The position numbers and the translations under genes were made by a program. From positions 1-62,152 of the forward strand of contig JAOAGQ010000066.1 in assembly GCA_026415675.1 (NCBI GenBank): 62,152 nt of DNA, given 5' to 3'. Position 1 is the stretch's first letter; every line of letters starts with the position of its first letter. This DNA is from Syntrophorhabdaceae bacterium (lineage in GTDB: Bacteria > Desulfobacterota > Syntrophorhabdia > Syntrophorhabdales > Syntrophorhabdaceae). The notes beneath the pieces were generated by a model. It did no database searches, was not told the origin of the DNA, and saw only the letters and a list, made by a program, of their open reading frames with translations. Below are positions 25,851 through 39,334 of this stretch, piece after piece.

Positions 25851-28800
25851 TCAAGAAACAGGGCCTTCCTCTGATTCGTATTCCCATTTCCCCAGATAGA
25901 CCGCCCCTGATGAACCGTCTATGGAGAGAAAATCCCCTGTTTTTATCATCTTCCCATCGACCATCGCGTAACCTTTCGCTTCATAGACTTTAAGTTTACC
26001 GAAGCCGACAACCCCCACTTTGTCGAGCTGAGGGATGGTTACGGCAGCATGGGATGTGCTCCCTCCCTTCGATGTGAGAAGGCCATCCACCTTAAGGAGG
26101 ACCCCAACATCATCGGGGACCGTATCGGGTCTTAGGAGAATAAGGGGTGATTCTCTATCCCTTTCCTTAAACCTCGAGATGTCTTCCTCAGAAAAGACCA
26201 CCCTACCGCTTATGGCCCCTCCTCCTACGCCTATACCCATACCCAAAAAGGAATCATTCAGTGCTTCCGTAACTTTAAATTTTCTCAAAACCCTATTTTC
26301 CCGCTGGATCATATCCCTTACCTGGAGTATGTACAGGCCCTGTCTGGTAGGATTTTCAAAGGTGAACTCTATCTCCTGGTGGTTAAAACCCTTCTCATAT
26401 ATGAGTATCTCCGATAGTCTTAAAAGTTCTTGGTATATCTCAGGGAACGTCTTCTCGAGGGATATGCTCGAGGTCCTCCACTGCTCTTTTCTCTGAACTT
26501 CTGTTATAGGATATGTTTCTACAAGGCCTGAGACGATATCGTCTCCCTGGACGCCGAAGATGAAGTCTCCGTATAGATTCACCGATGGGGTATGACCCTT
26601 TGGATTACGGGTAAAGATCACTCCAGATCCAGAATAATTATTTAAATTGCCGAACACCATTTTCTGGACGATAACTGCGGTGCCCCACTCGTCGGAGATC
26701 TGCATCTGTCTTCTATAGGTCCTTGCCTGTTCCGAAAACCAGGATGCAAAAACCTTAAGTATAGCCTGCTCGAGTTGCTTATAAGGGTTTAACGGTAGTT
26801 CTATCCCCCTCTCTTCGATTACCTTTCTATACGCAACCGTTATCTCCCTCATTACATCAGGCTCAAACTCTATCTTCCGGGATACGTTATATCTCTCTTT
26901 AAATCTTTCCATTATGGTGTCAAAGGTGTTACGATCCACGCCGTGAAACATGGCCCAAGCCTGTAAAAACCTCCTGTAAGAATCCCATGCAGCCCATCCG
27001 AAATGCTTCTTTTTACTTAAACCCTGGGCTATCTCGTCATTTATCCCAACATTCAGAAAAGAACGCATCATACCTGGAAGGGAGATGGTGGCACCGCTTC
27101 TCACAGATAAGAGCAAGGGGTTTCTCGTGTCACCGTATCTGCACCCTGTCAATTTTTCGAGTTCCTGTATCTCTCTCGAGATTCTGCTACTTAAATCCTT
27201 GAATATGTATTTATAGCCCACCACAGCATCCAACCCCCTGAAGACCTCGGTTGTGATAATAAAACCAGGGGGAACGGGAAACGACATGGAGGCGAGTTTT
27301 TTAAGAAAATATCCTTTATTCCCCACAAGAATAGGGTTGTCCGTATCATGGTTCTCCTTGTAAATAGGCGATATGGCAAGCTCTGGTATATACGCCATAA
27401 CAAGATTCAAGATGTGCTTGTTATCTTTGAATTTTTCGAGCTCCGCACTTAGATTTTTGATGATGCTGTTATTAAGATTGTCGAGGATCTGAAGGCCAAA
27501 GGCAGAGGATATGATGGAACGGTAGAACGCTTCCGAGTGCTGGTATATGAGTTCTTCCATCGATTTTTCAGACGCATTTGTGGATACACCTTTTTTGTCA
27601 ACTATCTGTCTTATGATGATGGGAAGGTTAGAGCTGTGGGCATCTATATAATAGTCATGGATGATATCTTGAATACCTTTGGATATGAACTTGAATATGT
27701 CGATGTACTGATCTATAGAGAATTGCCGAACCTGGAGGGCGCTTGTCACATAGTTCATCTTCGTAACGAGGCCTTCCGTTGAGATGCCTTCTAAATCAAG
27801 GGCTTTTACATAAAGCCAGAGATACTCGTGTATCTTGAGAAGGGTGCTTTTTGTTATGAATTTTAGATTCAATGATGCCATCAGTCTTTCAAAGAGGAGA
27901 TTCGCAAGGCTTTCAAGACGCAAAGAGAAGCCCAGCGCCTCGAACTTCTCTTCCCGGTATGTGCCGTACATAGAAGGGATTCCTGTTGCAATATGCCTTT
28001 TATAATATATATTTTCGTACGGCAGGGTTTTCTCCGGGGAGAGTATCTTTTCTTTTAACCTCTCAATAAAGGAGAGAACGAGCACAAGGGCCCTGTAATG
28101 GTCCCCCTTTTTTAAATAGCCCCTTAAAGACTTTATCTTCCGGAGGTTAAAAAGGCCCGAGGCTTCCATATCCAGTAACAGTTCTGTGTGTTTAGGGTTA
28201 TATTTTTTAAAGAGGAGTTGGTAGAGCCTTATAAGAAGATAGGCCCTTTTTCTATCTCTGTCCTTTACCCCTTCAATCGCCGAGATCTCCCTTTCGATCC
28301 TTTTTTTCTCCCAGTCGAGAAGATTCTGGGGGATCAACCCTCCTTTATCGAAGATCTCTTTTATTACAACGTGCATCCCATCGTAATATTCTCCATTTCC
28401 AGTAATCTCATCGTATACCTCTTCGGGAAGATAATCCTTTATGTATTCTTTTGATCCCGAATAGTAATACCGTAAGATATTCTCAAGAAAATAGACGAGG
28501 GTGCTGTTGCTCTCTACATGGGATTGCTTCCTCAAGAAATGGATCAATCTGTCGTTTCTGTTGGAAAGCTCGTCCAATTCTGTCGAGGTCTCCCTTAGCT
28601 CCCCTTCCGCACCTATTTCGGTGAAGTATACGGGGAGTATCCTCAGTAGTTGTTTCATCAAATTATAGGCAGGCCCTATATCTGAGTTTAACAGGGCAGA
28701 GATGTCCCTCTGGAGGAGGTCCGTATCTTTTACAAAGACACCCCCTGTGTAAAGGTTGATGATTAATGCAGATAGGAGCCTCTTCGTCCATCGGGGCTTC

Positions 28801-30062
28801 ATGCTTATTATCTCGAGCCATGCCCTTATGTTTTTTACGTGGTGAGGGTTTGCCTTGATCTGCCATTCCGTGGTTGAGCCTTTAAGTTCAGGTTGCTGGA
28901 AACCAAAGGAGATCAATTCTTCGATAAGGACGTCCACAAGGGGGTGGTTATTCTTTTCAAACACCTCTTTTGCTATCGTTCTGATACAGTCTATGGTGGC
29001 CCCTGCATGGGTCTCTTTAAGACCCCCTTTTTTCAATGACCCGAAGATCTTTCTAATAAAATCATCCATATCTTTTAAATCTTTCTGGGCAAGGGCCTTC
29101 CCAAGGGTTCTGTTTATTTCCCTCAGTATATCCCCATAGACGTCCGATAGACCGGGATGCTGGATCATATGAAAAAGGAAATCGAGTTTTAATATGTGGT
29201 CCTTTCCTTTGAATATCTCCGTCCTTTCCACCATATCGGCTGCAATAAAGTAACCATCCACAATCTGGGAATAGTCAGGAAGGGATATATATAACCCATA
29301 GATTTCTTTTAATCCTAAACTTTTGAGGGTTTCTTGATCTTCGATTTTGTCAAGGAGGGTTTTGATATACCTTTTGCTCAAAGGTTCTATAATTTTATGG
29401 TATGCCTCTGCCTCTTTCTCAGTAAAACCATCCTCATCCAGAGGCCATTTCTCAGGATCGGGATTGTTTAGCCAGAACCGGTATGTCTCTTTAAACACCT
29501 TATTCGCAAAGCCAAATATGGTTGCGATAACATTAACATATTTATAGTCCATAAGGAGCTTTATCAAAGATTTTATGTTTCCCGAGGATTTCTTTAAGAT
29601 GTGCCCTTCTTCTTCGCAGAGCTTATCAAGGGAGCCAATTACAGAGGGTATAAGGGAGAGGTTTCTCTCTCTGAAGATACCCCCTGATGATAGTGTTGTG
29701 TTTAAAAATTCGAAAAGGTAGCGGAGGGCGGTTTCTTTTGTTTCAAGTTTTGGAGCATATCTTACTACATCAACGTATATTTCGGAGAGAAGCCTTATCC
29801 CTTCTAGGCCTGAATTATGTTTGTTTAGAATGTAGAAATCCCCAATAGAGAGGCCCTTTAACATCTTTAAGAGTTCATCCCAGTTTACATATGGATGATG
29901 GAACTCCGTTAGGACATCCTCAATCCTTTTAGATACACCATAGTGGTTTTCCCCTATCCTTCTAAGGGGCATATATTTTTCAGGTATCTCAACCCTTGCA
30001 GCGGTTCTCTCGAGATTTACCTGAAGGGCAGAGGGATAATAATGCTTTTTCTCCCTTTCCAT
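25851..30062 (-). CDS. PPDK-like dikinase lacking the PEP/pyruvate barrel, with a 900-residue novel N-terminus
   Basis: 1403 residues. About 1-900 is a largely helical region I do not recognise. About 905-1290 is the pyruvate phosphate dikinase ATP-grasp domain (NKGYFLKKL...VPPGFIIT, SVRSGATISLPGMM, AAWDSYRRFLQAW, DEWGTAVIVQKMVFGN, GVIFTRNPKG, YILQVRDM). About 1290-1385 is the phosphohistidine swivel domain with catalytic His1338 in GGSTSHAAV. The protein stops there, so the C-terminal PEP/pyruvate-binding TIM barrel of PPDK and PEP synthase is missing. By analogy with glucan water dikinase and rifampin phosphotransferase it could transfer the beta-phosphate of ATP via His to another substrate, perhaps bound by the N-terminus; this is inference. 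Start 30062 has AGAGG 6-7 bases upstream. Confidence 0.85.
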   Translation of the reverse strand: MEREKKHYYPSALQVNLERTAARVEIPEKYMPLRRIGENHYGVSKRIEDVLTEFHHPYVNWDELLKMLKGLSIGDFYILNKHNSGLEGIRLLSEIYVDVVRYAPKLETKETALRYLFEFLNTTLSSGGIFRERNLSLIPSVIGSLDKLCEEEGHILKKSSGNIKSLIKLLMDYKYVNVIATIFGFANKVFKETYRFWLNNPDPEKWPLDEDGFTEKEAEAYHKIIEPLSKRYIKTLLDKIEDQETLKSLGLKEIYGLYISLPDYSQIVDGYFIAADMVERTEIFKGKDHILKLDFLFHMIQHPGLSDVYGDILREINRTLGKALAQKDLKDMDDFIRKIFGSLKKGGLKETHAGATIDCIRTIAKEVFEKNNHPLVDVLIEELISFGFQQPELKGSTTEWQIKANPHHVKNIRAWLEIISMKPRWTKRLLSALIINLYTGGVFVKDTDLLQRDISALLNSDIGPAYNLMKQLLRILPVYFTEIGAEGELRETSTELDELSNRNDRLIHFLRKQSHVESNSTLVYFLENILRYYYSGSKEYIKDYLPEEVYDEITGNGEYYDGMHVVIKEIFDKGGLIPQNLLDWEKKRIEREISAIEGVKDRDRKRAYLLIRLYQLLFKKYNPKHTELLLDMEASGLFNLRKIKSLRGYLKKGDHYRALVLVLSFIERLKEKILSPEKTLPYENIYYKRHIATGIPSMYGTYREEKFEALGFSLRLESLANLLFERLMASLNLKFITKSTLLKIHEYLWLYVKALDLEGISTEGLVTKMNYVTSALQVRQFSIDQYIDIFKFISKGIQDIIHDYYIDAHSSNLPIIIRQIVDKKGVSTNASEKSMEELIYQHSEAFYRSIISSAFGLQILDNLNNSIIKNLSAELEKFKDNKHILNLVMAYIPELAISPIYKENHDTDNPILVGNKGYFLKKLASMSFPVPPGFIITTEVFRGLDAVVGYKYIFKDLSSRISREIQELEKLTGCRYGDTRNPLLLSVRSGATISLPGMMRSFLNVGINDEIAQGLSKKKHFGWAAWDSYRRFLQAWAMFHGVDRNTFDTIMERFKERYNVSRKIEFEPDVMREITVAYRKVIEERGIELPLNPYKQLEQAILKVFASWFSEQARTYRRQMQISDEWGTAVIVQKMVFGNLNNYSGSGVIFTRNPKGHTPSVNLYGDFIFGVQGDDIVSGLVETYPITEVQRKEQWRTSSISLEKTFPEIYQELLRLSEILIYEKGFNHQEIEFTFENPTRQGLYILQVRDMIQRENRVLRKFKVTEALNDSFLGMGIGVGGGAISGRVVFSEEDISRFKERDRESPLILLRPDTVPDDVGVLLKVDGLLTSKGGSTSHAAVTIPQLDKVGVVGFGKLKVYEAKGYAMVDGKMIKTGDFLSIDGSSGAVYLGKWEYESEEGPVS

Positions 30063-37189: not shown

Positions 37190-39334
37190 ATGGAAACCAT
37201 CTATCTCTCTTTTCTGTGGCATATGCACCAGCCCTTTTATAAAAATCTGTACACAGGAGAGTATATCCTCCCCTGGGTACTTTTACACGGAACAAAGGAT
37301 TACTATGATATGCCTTATCTTCTTAAGGAATTTGAAGGGATAAGACAGACCTTTAATCTCGTTCCATCCCTTCTCATCCAGCTTGTAGACTATGAGGATG
37401 TGGGTGTAAAGGACAGATACCTTGAGCTTTTCCGAAAGCCTTCAAGGGAACTGACAGAAGAGGATAAGATATTCCTTCTTAAGAATTTTTTTAATGCAAA
37501 CTGGGACAACATGATAAGGCCGTACCCGAGATATTTCGAGCTCTTAAAAAGAAGGGGTTTCTACTACTCGAAAGAACAGATCGGTGACAAAATACCCTAC
37601 TTTTCTGATGACGACTTAAGGGATATCCAGGTTTTTTTCTTCTTGTCGTGGATTGACCCAATGTTTTCGGATCGTTATGAAGAGATAAGGAGACTGAAGG
37701 CAAAGGGGAGATACTTTACCGAAGAGGACAAATCGGTTCTCATCCGTATAATAAACGAGATCATAAGAGGGATCATACCTTTATACAGAGAGTTGTCTGA
37801 AAAAGGTATAATAGAGCTATCCACCTCACCCTTTTACCATCCCATCATACCCCTTCTCATTGACAATACCATCGCAAAGGTCTCAAACCCTGACTGTAGG
37901 TTACCCGATAAACCTTTTATGAGTAGAGAAGATGCAAGCAGCCAGATAGGGAGGGCAAAAGAACTTTTCTACCAGATGTTTAATACGTATCCGAAGGGGA
38001 TGTGGCCCCCTGAAGGTTCGGTGAGCGATGAGGCGTTAGAGCTTTATATGGAGCATAACGTGGGGTGGGTCGCATCAGATGAGGAGATCCTTTTTAACAG
38101 CCTTAATATCGAGTTGAGAAGGGATGGAGAGGGGTTCATCTCGAATCCCGATGTGTTATATAGACCCTATTACTTTGAAAGAGAAGGTAGAAGGATCCAT
38201 ATCGTTTTCAGGGATAAAGGCCTTTCAGACCTTATCTCATTCCATTATTCGAGATTTGATCCAAAGGATGCGGCATCGGATCTCATAAGGAGGATCAAAA
38301 AGATAGGGGAGAGGGTAAAAAATTCTTTGAAGAGACCTACGGTTTTTATTATTATGGATGGGGAGAATGCATGGGAATACTATAGGAATGACGGGATAGA
38401 CTTCTTCAGGTATCTATACGATGGGCTATCAAAAGAGAAGTCCATATCGTGCAGGACGATCTCGGAGGCCATATCGGAAGGGGAGGAGGCAAGGCCCCTG
38501 TCCCGTTGCTTTCCCGGGTCTTGGATAAATCATAATTTTTCCATATGGATAGGCCACATCGAGGACAACATGAGCTGGTCTTTACTCACAGAGACAAGGG
38601 AATATCTTGAAAAAAACGACCCTGAAAAGAAAAACGATAAGGCATGGGAATCCTTATATATTGCAGAAGGGAGCGATTGGAACTGGTGGTATGGCGATGA
38701 CCATAGCTCGGAAAACGATGAGATATTCGACTATCTTTTCAGGGAAAATATATCTAACGTGTATAGATTTCTCGGGGTTACCCCCCCTGAAAAATTGAAC
38801 ATCCCTATTCTCCTCGAAGAAAGGGAGGTTAGACCGACAAGGGAGCCTGTAAATTTTATCCATCCCATTATAGACGGTAGAGTTACCAACTATTTTGAGT
38901 GGATGGGCTCGGGTTTCCTTGAGGCAAAAGGTCATGGCGTTGCGATGCACGAAACATTCTCCCTTATTAAGGGGTGTTATTTTGGATTCAACGAGCGTTT
39001 CTTTTATTTGAGGCTCGATTTTGACAAGTTTTTTCTCAATTCAACGGAGGATATTATATTTGAGATAACGATCTCTGCCCGGGATACCCATCTCATTGCA
39101 TATAACATGAAGGACAGAAATGTAGATAGCCCCTTTCCCGTACAGATATCCTTTGCCGATATCCTTGAGATGGAGGTCCCCATAGATGTCCTGGGGGTAA
39201 AAGCAAAAGACAGGATAGACGTATGGGTGATTGTAAAGACAAAAGAGACGACAATTGGTAGAATACCTCAGAGAGGTTTTCTTACAATTACGGTCCCTTC
39301 TGAGAATTTTGAGATGGAGATGTGGTATGTCTGA
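37190..39334 (+). CDS. Glycoside hydrolase family 57 protein
   Basis: 714 residues. The N-terminal catalytic barrel begins with the family motif LSFLWHMHQPFY. The nucleophile motif WPPEGSVSDEAL (Glu275) and the acid/base motif IMDGENAWEYY (Asp390) are intact. The C-terminal beta-rich domain (about 560-714) is of the type attached to GH57 alpha-amylase/mannosidase-like proteins. GH57 members act on alpha-glucans (amylases, branching enzymes, 4-alpha-glucanotransferases), and the exact specificity cannot be assigned. No signal peptide is present, so it probably works on intracellular glycogen-like material. Confidence 0.92.
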   Translation: METIYLSFLWHMHQPFYKNLYTGEYILPWVLLHGTKDYYDMPYLLKEFEGIRQTFNLVPSLLIQLVDYEDVGVKDRYLELFRKPSRELTEEDKIFLLKNFFNANWDNMIRPYPRYFELLKRRGFYYSKEQIGDKIPYFSDDDLRDIQVFFFLSWIDPMFSDRYEEIRRLKAKGRYFTEEDKSVLIRIINEIIRGIIPLYRELSEKGIIELSTSPFYHPIIPLLIDNTIAKVSNPDCRLPDKPFMSREDASSQIGRAKELFYQMFNTYPKGMWPPEGSVSDEALELYMEHNVGWVASDEEILFNSLNIELRRDGEGFISNPDVLYRPYYFEREGRRIHIVFRDKGLSDLISFHYSRFDPKDAASDLIRRIKKIGERVKNSLKRPTVFIIMDGENAWEYYRNDGIDFFRYLYDGLSKEKSISCRTISEAISEGEEARPLSRCFPGSWINHNFSIWIGHIEDNMSWSLLTETREYLEKNDPEKKNDKAWESLYIAEGSDWNWWYGDDHSSENDEIFDYLFRENISNVYRFLGVTPPEKLNIPILLEEREVRPTREPVNFIHPIIDGRVTNYFEWMGSGFLEAKGHGVAMHETFSLIKGCYFGFNERFFYLRLDFDKFFLNSTEDIIFEITISARDTHLIAYNMKDRNVDSPFPVQISFADILEMEVPIDVLGVKAKDRIDVWVIVKTKETTIGRIPQRGFLTITVPSENFEMEMWYV

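Follow-up and report, generated by a model that had tools for sequence, protein, structure and literature searches.

What is the phosphate acceptor of a dikinase that retains the PPDK-type catalytic domains but not the PEP/pyruvate barrel? The stretch of DNA analysed here (62,152 nucleotides, the window) encodes such a protein, the parts of which are as follows.

25854..30062, minus strand: dikinase gene, 1403 aa; orthologues of ~1400 aa have a matching frame and start
28998..30062, minus strand: residues 1-355, variable part, predicted helical and solenoid-like; 2 of 355 columns invariant (55 rows)
27348..28997, minus strand: residues 356-905, helical module, proposed from column invariance as the part that binds the phosphate acceptor; no fold clearly matched
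27873..28037, minus strand: residues 676-730, containing the KRHIAxGIPSxYGxYxExKFEA loop, retained even in relatives of ~24% identity
26298..27347, minus strand: residues 906-1255, PPDK-type ATP-grasp domain (Pfam, phmmer, Foldseek, alignment to PPDK 1kbl)
25854..26297, minus strand: residues 1256-1403, swivel (phosphohistidine) domain and C-terminus (Pfam, Foldseek, alignment to 1kbl)
26049..26051, minus strand: codon of H1338, the proposed phosphocarrier histidine, aligned to the His of 1kbl and identical in 54 of 54 rows

Architecture of the dikinase

The open frame runs from 30131 to 25851, with the orthologue-matching start at 30062 and the stop codon at 25851-25853 (minus strand). Pfam finds PPDK_N (best stretch 956-1200, 111.5 bits) and PEP-utilizers (1306-1386, 46.1 bits) and no third family in the 1403 residues, and PPDK structures match residues 910-1400 by phmmer. 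H1338 lies within GGSTSHAAV, aligned to GGMTSHAAV of 1kbl; it does not vary across the 54 rows of alignment A4, and neither do K916, R988, E1230, E1232, Q1247 and R1249, which we take to be the PPDK ATP-site residues (K916 and R988 are also aligned to residues of 1kbl). The PEP/pyruvate barrel is absent, as there is no Pfam match to it, the protein stops 65 residues past H1338, and the PPDK match to a model of residues 204-1403 spans only ~546 columns in Foldseek. The first-pass annotation had described the same two domains, a missing third module and a huge, mostly helical N-terminus, and had named a PEP/pyruvate fold in the N-terminus, or loss of catalytic residues in orthologues, as findings that would speak against it. 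No such fold was found in residues 1-905 by Foldseek against the PDB, by VIA-align or by Foldseek of the 204-1403 model, and the catalytic residues are retained throughout A4. At the level of sequence and predicted structure, the protein is thus confirmed as a PPDK-like ATP-grasp and His swivel pair without the barrel and with a helical N-terminus of ~905 residues.

This N-terminus matches no Pfam family and is predicted to be all-alpha save one short beta hairpin at residues 682-703 (pLDDT 85.8). Its model gave no Foldseek match in the PDB at E<=1e-3 and only generic helical solenoids in VIA-align (best Z 9.2, where ~13 is advised for helical repeats); because residues past ~710 were barely covered in the VIA-align comparison, the missing match does not prove a new fold. 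Invariant columns number 28 of 175 in residues 356-530 and 12 of 55 in residues 676-730 (55 rows), a degree of conservation equal to that of the ATP-grasp domain, and invariant polar motifs lie within both stretches, with E486, R490, R511, K512, H515, E517, K688-H690, S697, Y699 and K706 among the invariant residues. We propose that the region from ~356 to 905 is a new acceptor module that replaces the PEP/pyruvate barrel, which would extend the dikinase toolkit by a helical module whose fold matches none recognised so far.

The dikinase is one of a conserved family whose members share a constant architecture of ~1400 aa. A single collection scan with the N-terminus alone as query confirmed 537 relatives, and chance is therefore excluded as the origin of the architecture. 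Members also occur in Acidobacteriota, Riflebacteria and Eisenbacteria, and one cultured host of the dikinase is Desulfobulbus rhabdoformis. The 80 loci that we studied are the best 80 of the 537 and so are biased toward close relatives; alignments A3 and A4 drew on 54 and 53 of them, respectively. The core motifs are retained in all four aligned members of a divergent, Nitrospirota-type group (~24% identity). No report of the family, or of its pairing with the long GAPDH described below, turned up in searches confined to open-licence PMC papers.

Among known dikinases, PPDK (e.g., 1kbl) is ~30% identical to the dikinase in the ATP-grasp and swivel His domains and shares all tested ATP-site residues; judged by sequence, the dikinase thus has both the PPDK_N domain with its ATP site and the swivel domain with a phosphorylatable His. 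The match is limited to the first ~515 PPDK residues, however, and PPDK ends in the barrel that the dikinase lacks, while the dikinase begins with the 905-residue helical region, giving an order (N-module, ATP-grasp, His) unlike that of PPDK. Its score against TIGR01828 (PPDK) is 369 bits, against a curated cut-off of 843. PEP synthase (pyruvate, water dikinase) has the same two modules and general mechanism and differs from the dikinase as PPDK does, with a weaker match (81 bits, NF005057). GWD directs the same pair of catalytic modules at an acceptor other than pyruvate, but no carbohydrate-binding domain is matched in the dikinase by Pfam at E<=1. In RPH, the order is ATP-grasp, acceptor domain, His, whereas the acceptor module would come first in the dikinase; no acceptor-domain similarity to RPH or to the two-component dikinases was found. 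The NF041857 (RPH) score is 42 bits against a cut-off of 999, and the N-terminal model has no significant match in Foldseek or VIA-align, a result that does not show a RIF-binding fold to be absent from the acceptor module. By the membership criteria of these families, the dikinase is not a PPDK, GWD or RPH. The Foldseek matches of its model include 5hv3 and 9goj (HpeI). RPH and the two-component dikinases HpeHI and phenylphosphate synthase use ATP-grasp and a swivel His on a non-pyruvate acceptor (PMC12167813), as we suppose for the dikinase. Transfer to an acceptor other than that of PPDK, as first suggested for this gene, remains the best reading of the architecture.

Genomic association with a long GAPDH

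The small gene upstream (82 aa) and the CDF transporter downstream had been put forward as possible partners, together with a neighbourhood analysis. In tblastn of 118 related loci (E<=0.01), no match to either gene appeared, and both are dropped as partners; the analysis itself did uncover a conserved associate, a long form of GAPDH, which had been overlooked because it is not adjacent to the dikinase in the window's genome. There it lies on a different contig, and its neighbourhood (L189) is uninformative.

The long GAPDH is ~425 aa, as compared with ~335 aa for type I GAPDH, with which it shares Gp_dh_N, Gp_dh_C and the catalytic Cys and His. It differs in that the NAD-site Asp is replaced and in that two members score 285 and 318 bits with TIGR01534, under the cut-off of 367; the best PDB match is "GAPDH 2". 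Because the Cys-Thr-Thr and His-Ala-x-Thr motifs are retained, and because the long form is the sole GAPDH found in 4 of the 83 genomes bearing the pair, it probably carries out ordinary GAP/1,3-BPG chemistry.

Among 297 genomes of the window's phylum, the dikinase was found in 84, the long GAPDH in 85 and both in 83; among those at least 90% complete and at most 5% contaminated, each occurs in 73 of 245. Among 198 genomes of a second phylum, the two are found in the same 22 when eight divergent, Nitrospirota-type dikinase hits are set apart; these eight are in genomes without the long GAPDH, so that it accompanies the dikinase in 22 of 30 when they are included. Both genes are absent from five of ten genomes sampled from the window's own family. 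The genome lists were compared by eye, and the co-occurrence is inflated by shared ancestry.

The long GAPDH lies at most 600 nt downstream of the dikinase in 45 of 66 loci (31 convergent, 14 on the same strand), is farther off in two, and is absent from the fetched stretch in 19; this count covers loci with at least 1400 nt downstream, 15 of the 81 (80 plus the window) having been dropped as shorter. Four loci (L123, L187, L197 and L198) have the order gap-dik-longGAPDH-pgk-tpi. An apparent GAPDH-PGK fusion in L193 is read as an overlong ORF, since by coordinates the two frames differ. The distance matrices of the dikinase and the long GAPDH correlate with r 0.94 across 56 loci (a value that none of 2000 permutations reached), but we do not take this as co-evolution, as shared phylogeny alone could produce such a correlation. 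Replacement of PGK by the pair is ruled out as a general rule, PGK being found in 282 of the 297 genomes and in 81 of the 83 with the pair.

Possible reactions at the GAPDH/PGK node

Lower glycolysis is considered to be completely mapped. The near-constant pairing with the long GAPDH points to an undescribed step in central carbon metabolism, and comparative genomics supports a role for the dikinase alongside this protein at the GAPDH/PGK/TIM node. We consider the chances about evenly balanced that it acts there on a triose-level small molecule. The best explanation, to which we give slightly less than even credence, is a self-contained AMP-forming dikinase that works with the long GAPDH. As homology supports, ATP would bind the ATP-grasp domain and His1338 would be the phosphocarrier; the phospho-His would then swing to an acceptor site in the helical module, in place of the barrel. 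The most likely reaction would be 3-phosphoglycerate + ATP (+ Pi or H2O) -> 1,3-bisphosphoglycerate + AMP (+ PPi or Pi), and the long GAPDH, with NADPH as the probable reductant, would convert the acyl phosphate into glyceraldehyde 3-phosphate. PGK would in effect be bypassed, irreversibly and in the gluconeogenic direction, much as pyruvate kinase is by PEP synthase; run in reverse, the dikinase reaction could save PPi.

We infer the acceptor, and this specific 3-PG/1,3-BPG reaction is a tentative assignment, more likely wrong than right. Slightly more doubtful is the full proposal, in which a phosphoglycerate dikinase that forms AMP and has a helical acceptor module without precedent would, together with a dedicated long GAPDH, provide a second, one-way (or pyrophosphate-saving) GAPDH/PGK route in several anaerobe phyla. 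With PGK in nearly all genomes bearing the pair, a second enzyme making 1,3-BPG is not strictly needed, and since the core motifs are kept in four aligned relatives without the long GAPDH, the acceptor need not depend on that protein. Also at odds with the favored explanation are the three rumen Riflebacteria genomes G332-G334, which have the dikinase and ordinary GAPDH only, the eight divergent relatives, the 19 loci without the long form, and the separate contigs of the two genes in the window's genome.

The 1:1 occurrence with a single protein, although PGK is present, and a large solenoid-like N-terminus, of a type that often serves protein binding, would also suit a regulatory phosphotransferase, in which H1338 is charged from ATP and its phosphate passes to a protein, the long GAPDH being the simplest choice, or in which the dikinase binds GAPDH via the solenoid; in either form, energy charge would set glycolysis versus gluconeogenesis. 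We find this possible but rather unlikely, since the invariant residues cluster in a small number of polar motifs, as would better suit a substrate site, and are not spread solenoid-wide (see residues 1-355 above), and three genomes have the dikinase without the long GAPDH. The same genomic context would fit phosphorylation of another C3 compound (glycerate, glyceraldehyde, dihydroxyacetone or a triose phosphate) feeding the node, and dikinases for small molecules are known to have a range of acceptors (PMC12167813); this would leave the pairing with one GAPDH type unexplained, and we think it improbable. That the enzyme acts on pyruvate/PEP at a site rebuilt in the helical module is very improbable: its ATP-grasp and swivel domains are nearest those of PPDK, but the TIGR01828 score is far under the cut-off, there is no barrel, and a 925-aa PPDK relative is already present in the genome. 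A GWD-like glucan dikinase, the first-pass suggestion, scarcely merits consideration: GWD shares the two catalytic modules and a GH57 gene lies 7 kb away in the window, but Pfam finds no starch-binding domain in the dikinase, and in the neighbour clusters that were read at sequence level no glycogen gene recurs.

Returning to the AMP-forming dikinase that we favor, its nearly 1:1 occurrence, across two phyla, with a special GAPDH suggests that the GAPDH/PGK step has an energy-coupled variant, the hosts of which are syntrophs, sulfate reducers and relatives of cable bacteria living near the thermodynamic limit.

The dikinase and its family

The window encodes the PPDK-like dikinase in the following gene:

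25854-30062, minus strand, dikinase of 1403 aa (frame open to 30131)

Its last ~500 residues contain the Pfam domains PPDK_N and PEP-utilizers, and residues 910-1400 align with pyruvate phosphate dikinase (PPDK) sequences of the PDB; residues 1-905 have no Pfam match. The closest NCBIfam model is PPDK TIGR01828 (369 bits, cut-off 843), followed by PEP synthase, rifampin phosphotransferase (RPH) and the prodigiosin ligases. By membership, the protein nevertheless lies outside PPDK, because it lacks the C-terminal PEP/pyruvate-binding barrel, and outside RPH, from which it differs in domain order and score. It is likewise outside glucan water dikinase (GWD), as no glucan-binding domain was found, which tells against the glucan acceptor suggested in the first-pass annotation. 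Judged by sequence, the dikinase resembles PPDK, GWD and RPH in working up to the acceptor step. We found no report of this family, or of its pairing with the dehydrogenase described below, in the open-licence literature. The same genome encodes a separate 925-aa PPDK relative on a different contig and three further PEP-utilizers proteins (frames of 589-640 aa).

AlphaFold models of residues 1-905 (pLDDT 85.8, pTM 0.79) and 204-1403 (pLDDT 85.7, pTM 0.71) predict a helical N-terminus followed by two PPDK modules. The first-pass annotation had described this N-terminus as mostly helical and proposed a fold search. Foldseek found no PDB match at E<=1e-3 for the 1-905 model, and VIA-align returned generic solenoids only. 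With the 204-1403 model, Foldseek retrieved PPDK (1kbl, E 2.2e-30), PEP synthase, RPH and HpeI. Invariant columns number 2 of 355 in residues 1-355, 28 of 175 in residues 356-530 and 12 of 55 in residues 676-730 (55 rows), and 60 of 350 in the ATP-grasp domain (54 rows). The two lowest-confidence internal loops of the 1-905 model, 481-485 and 688-698, coincide with the conserved motifs IGAEGELR and KRHIAxGIPS. We infer that residues 356-905 form a putative acceptor module and residues 1-355 a solenoid that is freer to vary.

Full-length orthologues (~1400 aa, 58-62% identity) are common among 60 relatives, and by sequence the dikinase is a member of a real family. A collection scan with the N-terminus only gave at least 586 pattern matches, and 537 of those listed were confirmed. 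From these 537 the best 80 loci were kept, which span Desulfobacterota-type lineages, Acidobacteriota, Riflebacteria, Eisenbacteria and Nitrospirota. Among the hosts are Smithella, Candidatus Electrothrix and Desulfobulbus rhabdoformis. Divergent relatives occur in 8 of 198 Nitrospirota-type genomes; the four aligned (1451-1510 aa, 23.6-25.3% identity) keep RKQxHVxxS, KRHIAFGIPSxxGxYxExKFDA, the swivel-domain H1338 and most ATP-site residues.

Several loci depart from the usual form. The N-terminus differs in divergent relatives L183-L186 (genomes G492, G453, G373, G486), and in L185 the gene follows that of a 1435-aa glutamate synthase. In L196, from a one-contig genome (G106:C1:682938-684668 and from 684688), the dikinase is divided near residue ~595 into two consecutive frames (651 aa and 794 aa); the gene may be broken, or the protein may naturally come in two parts. 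The frame in L107, on a 3.5 kb Smithellaceae contig, has no match to residues ~640-907, which may be an assembly fault.

Association with a long GAPDH

When neighbours were clustered across 81 loci (the 80 kept plus the window), one cluster stood out, an atypical ~425-aa GAPDH-like protein (long GAPDH) directly downstream of the dikinase. It lies within 600 nt downstream in 45 of the 66 loci having at least 1400 nt there, 31 times convergent with the dikinase and 14 times on the same strand, a variation that argues against mere inherited gene order. In 7 of 69 loci the gene immediately before the dikinase is canonical gap, and four loci (L123, L187, L197, L198) read gap, dikinase, long GAPDH, pgk, tpi. 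In three Acidobacteriota loci (L090, L092, L093) that place is taken by a gene for an aldehyde dehydrogenase of 527-557 aa, possibly another triose-level link; for that of L092 the best NCBIfam model is NADP-dependent GAPDH, scoring far under cut-off. The GH57 glycosidase gene at 37190-39331 of the window showed no link to the dikinase among the neighbour clusters read.

In the genome of the window, the long GAPDH is on another contig:

G000:C59:17056-18318, long GAPDH

Among 297 genomes of the window's phylum, 84 carry the dikinase N-terminus and 85 the long GAPDH (E<=1e-80), with 83 common to both lists (Fisher p 2e-70, phylogeny ignored). The exceptions are G153 (76% complete), with the dikinase only, and G048 and G119 (79% and 62% complete), with the long GAPDH only; among good genomes each protein is found in 73 of 245. 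Of the genomes from the window's own family in this sample, five have both and five neither. In the phylum of G338 (Nitrospirae, locus L135), the 22 of 198 genomes with a strong dikinase match are the same 22 that have the long GAPDH (p 1e-29); it was not found in the eight with a divergent relative. The 12 genomes behind named loci include eight with a full long GAPDH and one with a 159-aa piece; in three rumen Riflebacteria genomes among them, all with a confirmed dikinase, the long GAPDH was not found.

Predicted reactions of the pair

The long GAPDH has both GAPDH domains and the catalytic motifs, and scores under the type I GAPDH cut-off. At the NAD-binding Asp position it has N-I-G-R, whereas 2ep7 has N-D-L; its best PDB match, 'Glyceraldehyde-3-phosphate dehydrogenase 2' (8wwz), has N-A-S. 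We take this name to denote the NADPH-dependent gluconeogenic GapB of Bacillus, and the long GAPDH would therefore use NADPH. In 4 of the 83 genomes that carry both proteins (G070, G106, G134, G262) it is the only GAPDH found, and all four have phosphoglycerate kinase (PGK). The most likely activity of the long GAPDH is therefore the ordinary GAP/1,3-bisphosphoglycerate (1,3-BPG) reaction.

Classically, a kinase that makes an acyl phosphate has as its partner a GAPDH-fold dehydrogenase by which the product is reduced, as in aspartokinase/ASADH and PGK/GAPDH. Tied to a GAPDH, the dikinase would most simply make, or use, 1,3-BPG, with AMP-forming chemistry in place of the reversible ADP chemistry of PGK. 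The main rival is that the dikinase regulates the GAPDH; after it comes action on another C3 acceptor. A dikinase route to or from 1,3-BPG would be a bypass, since PGK is present in 81 of the 83 pair genomes.
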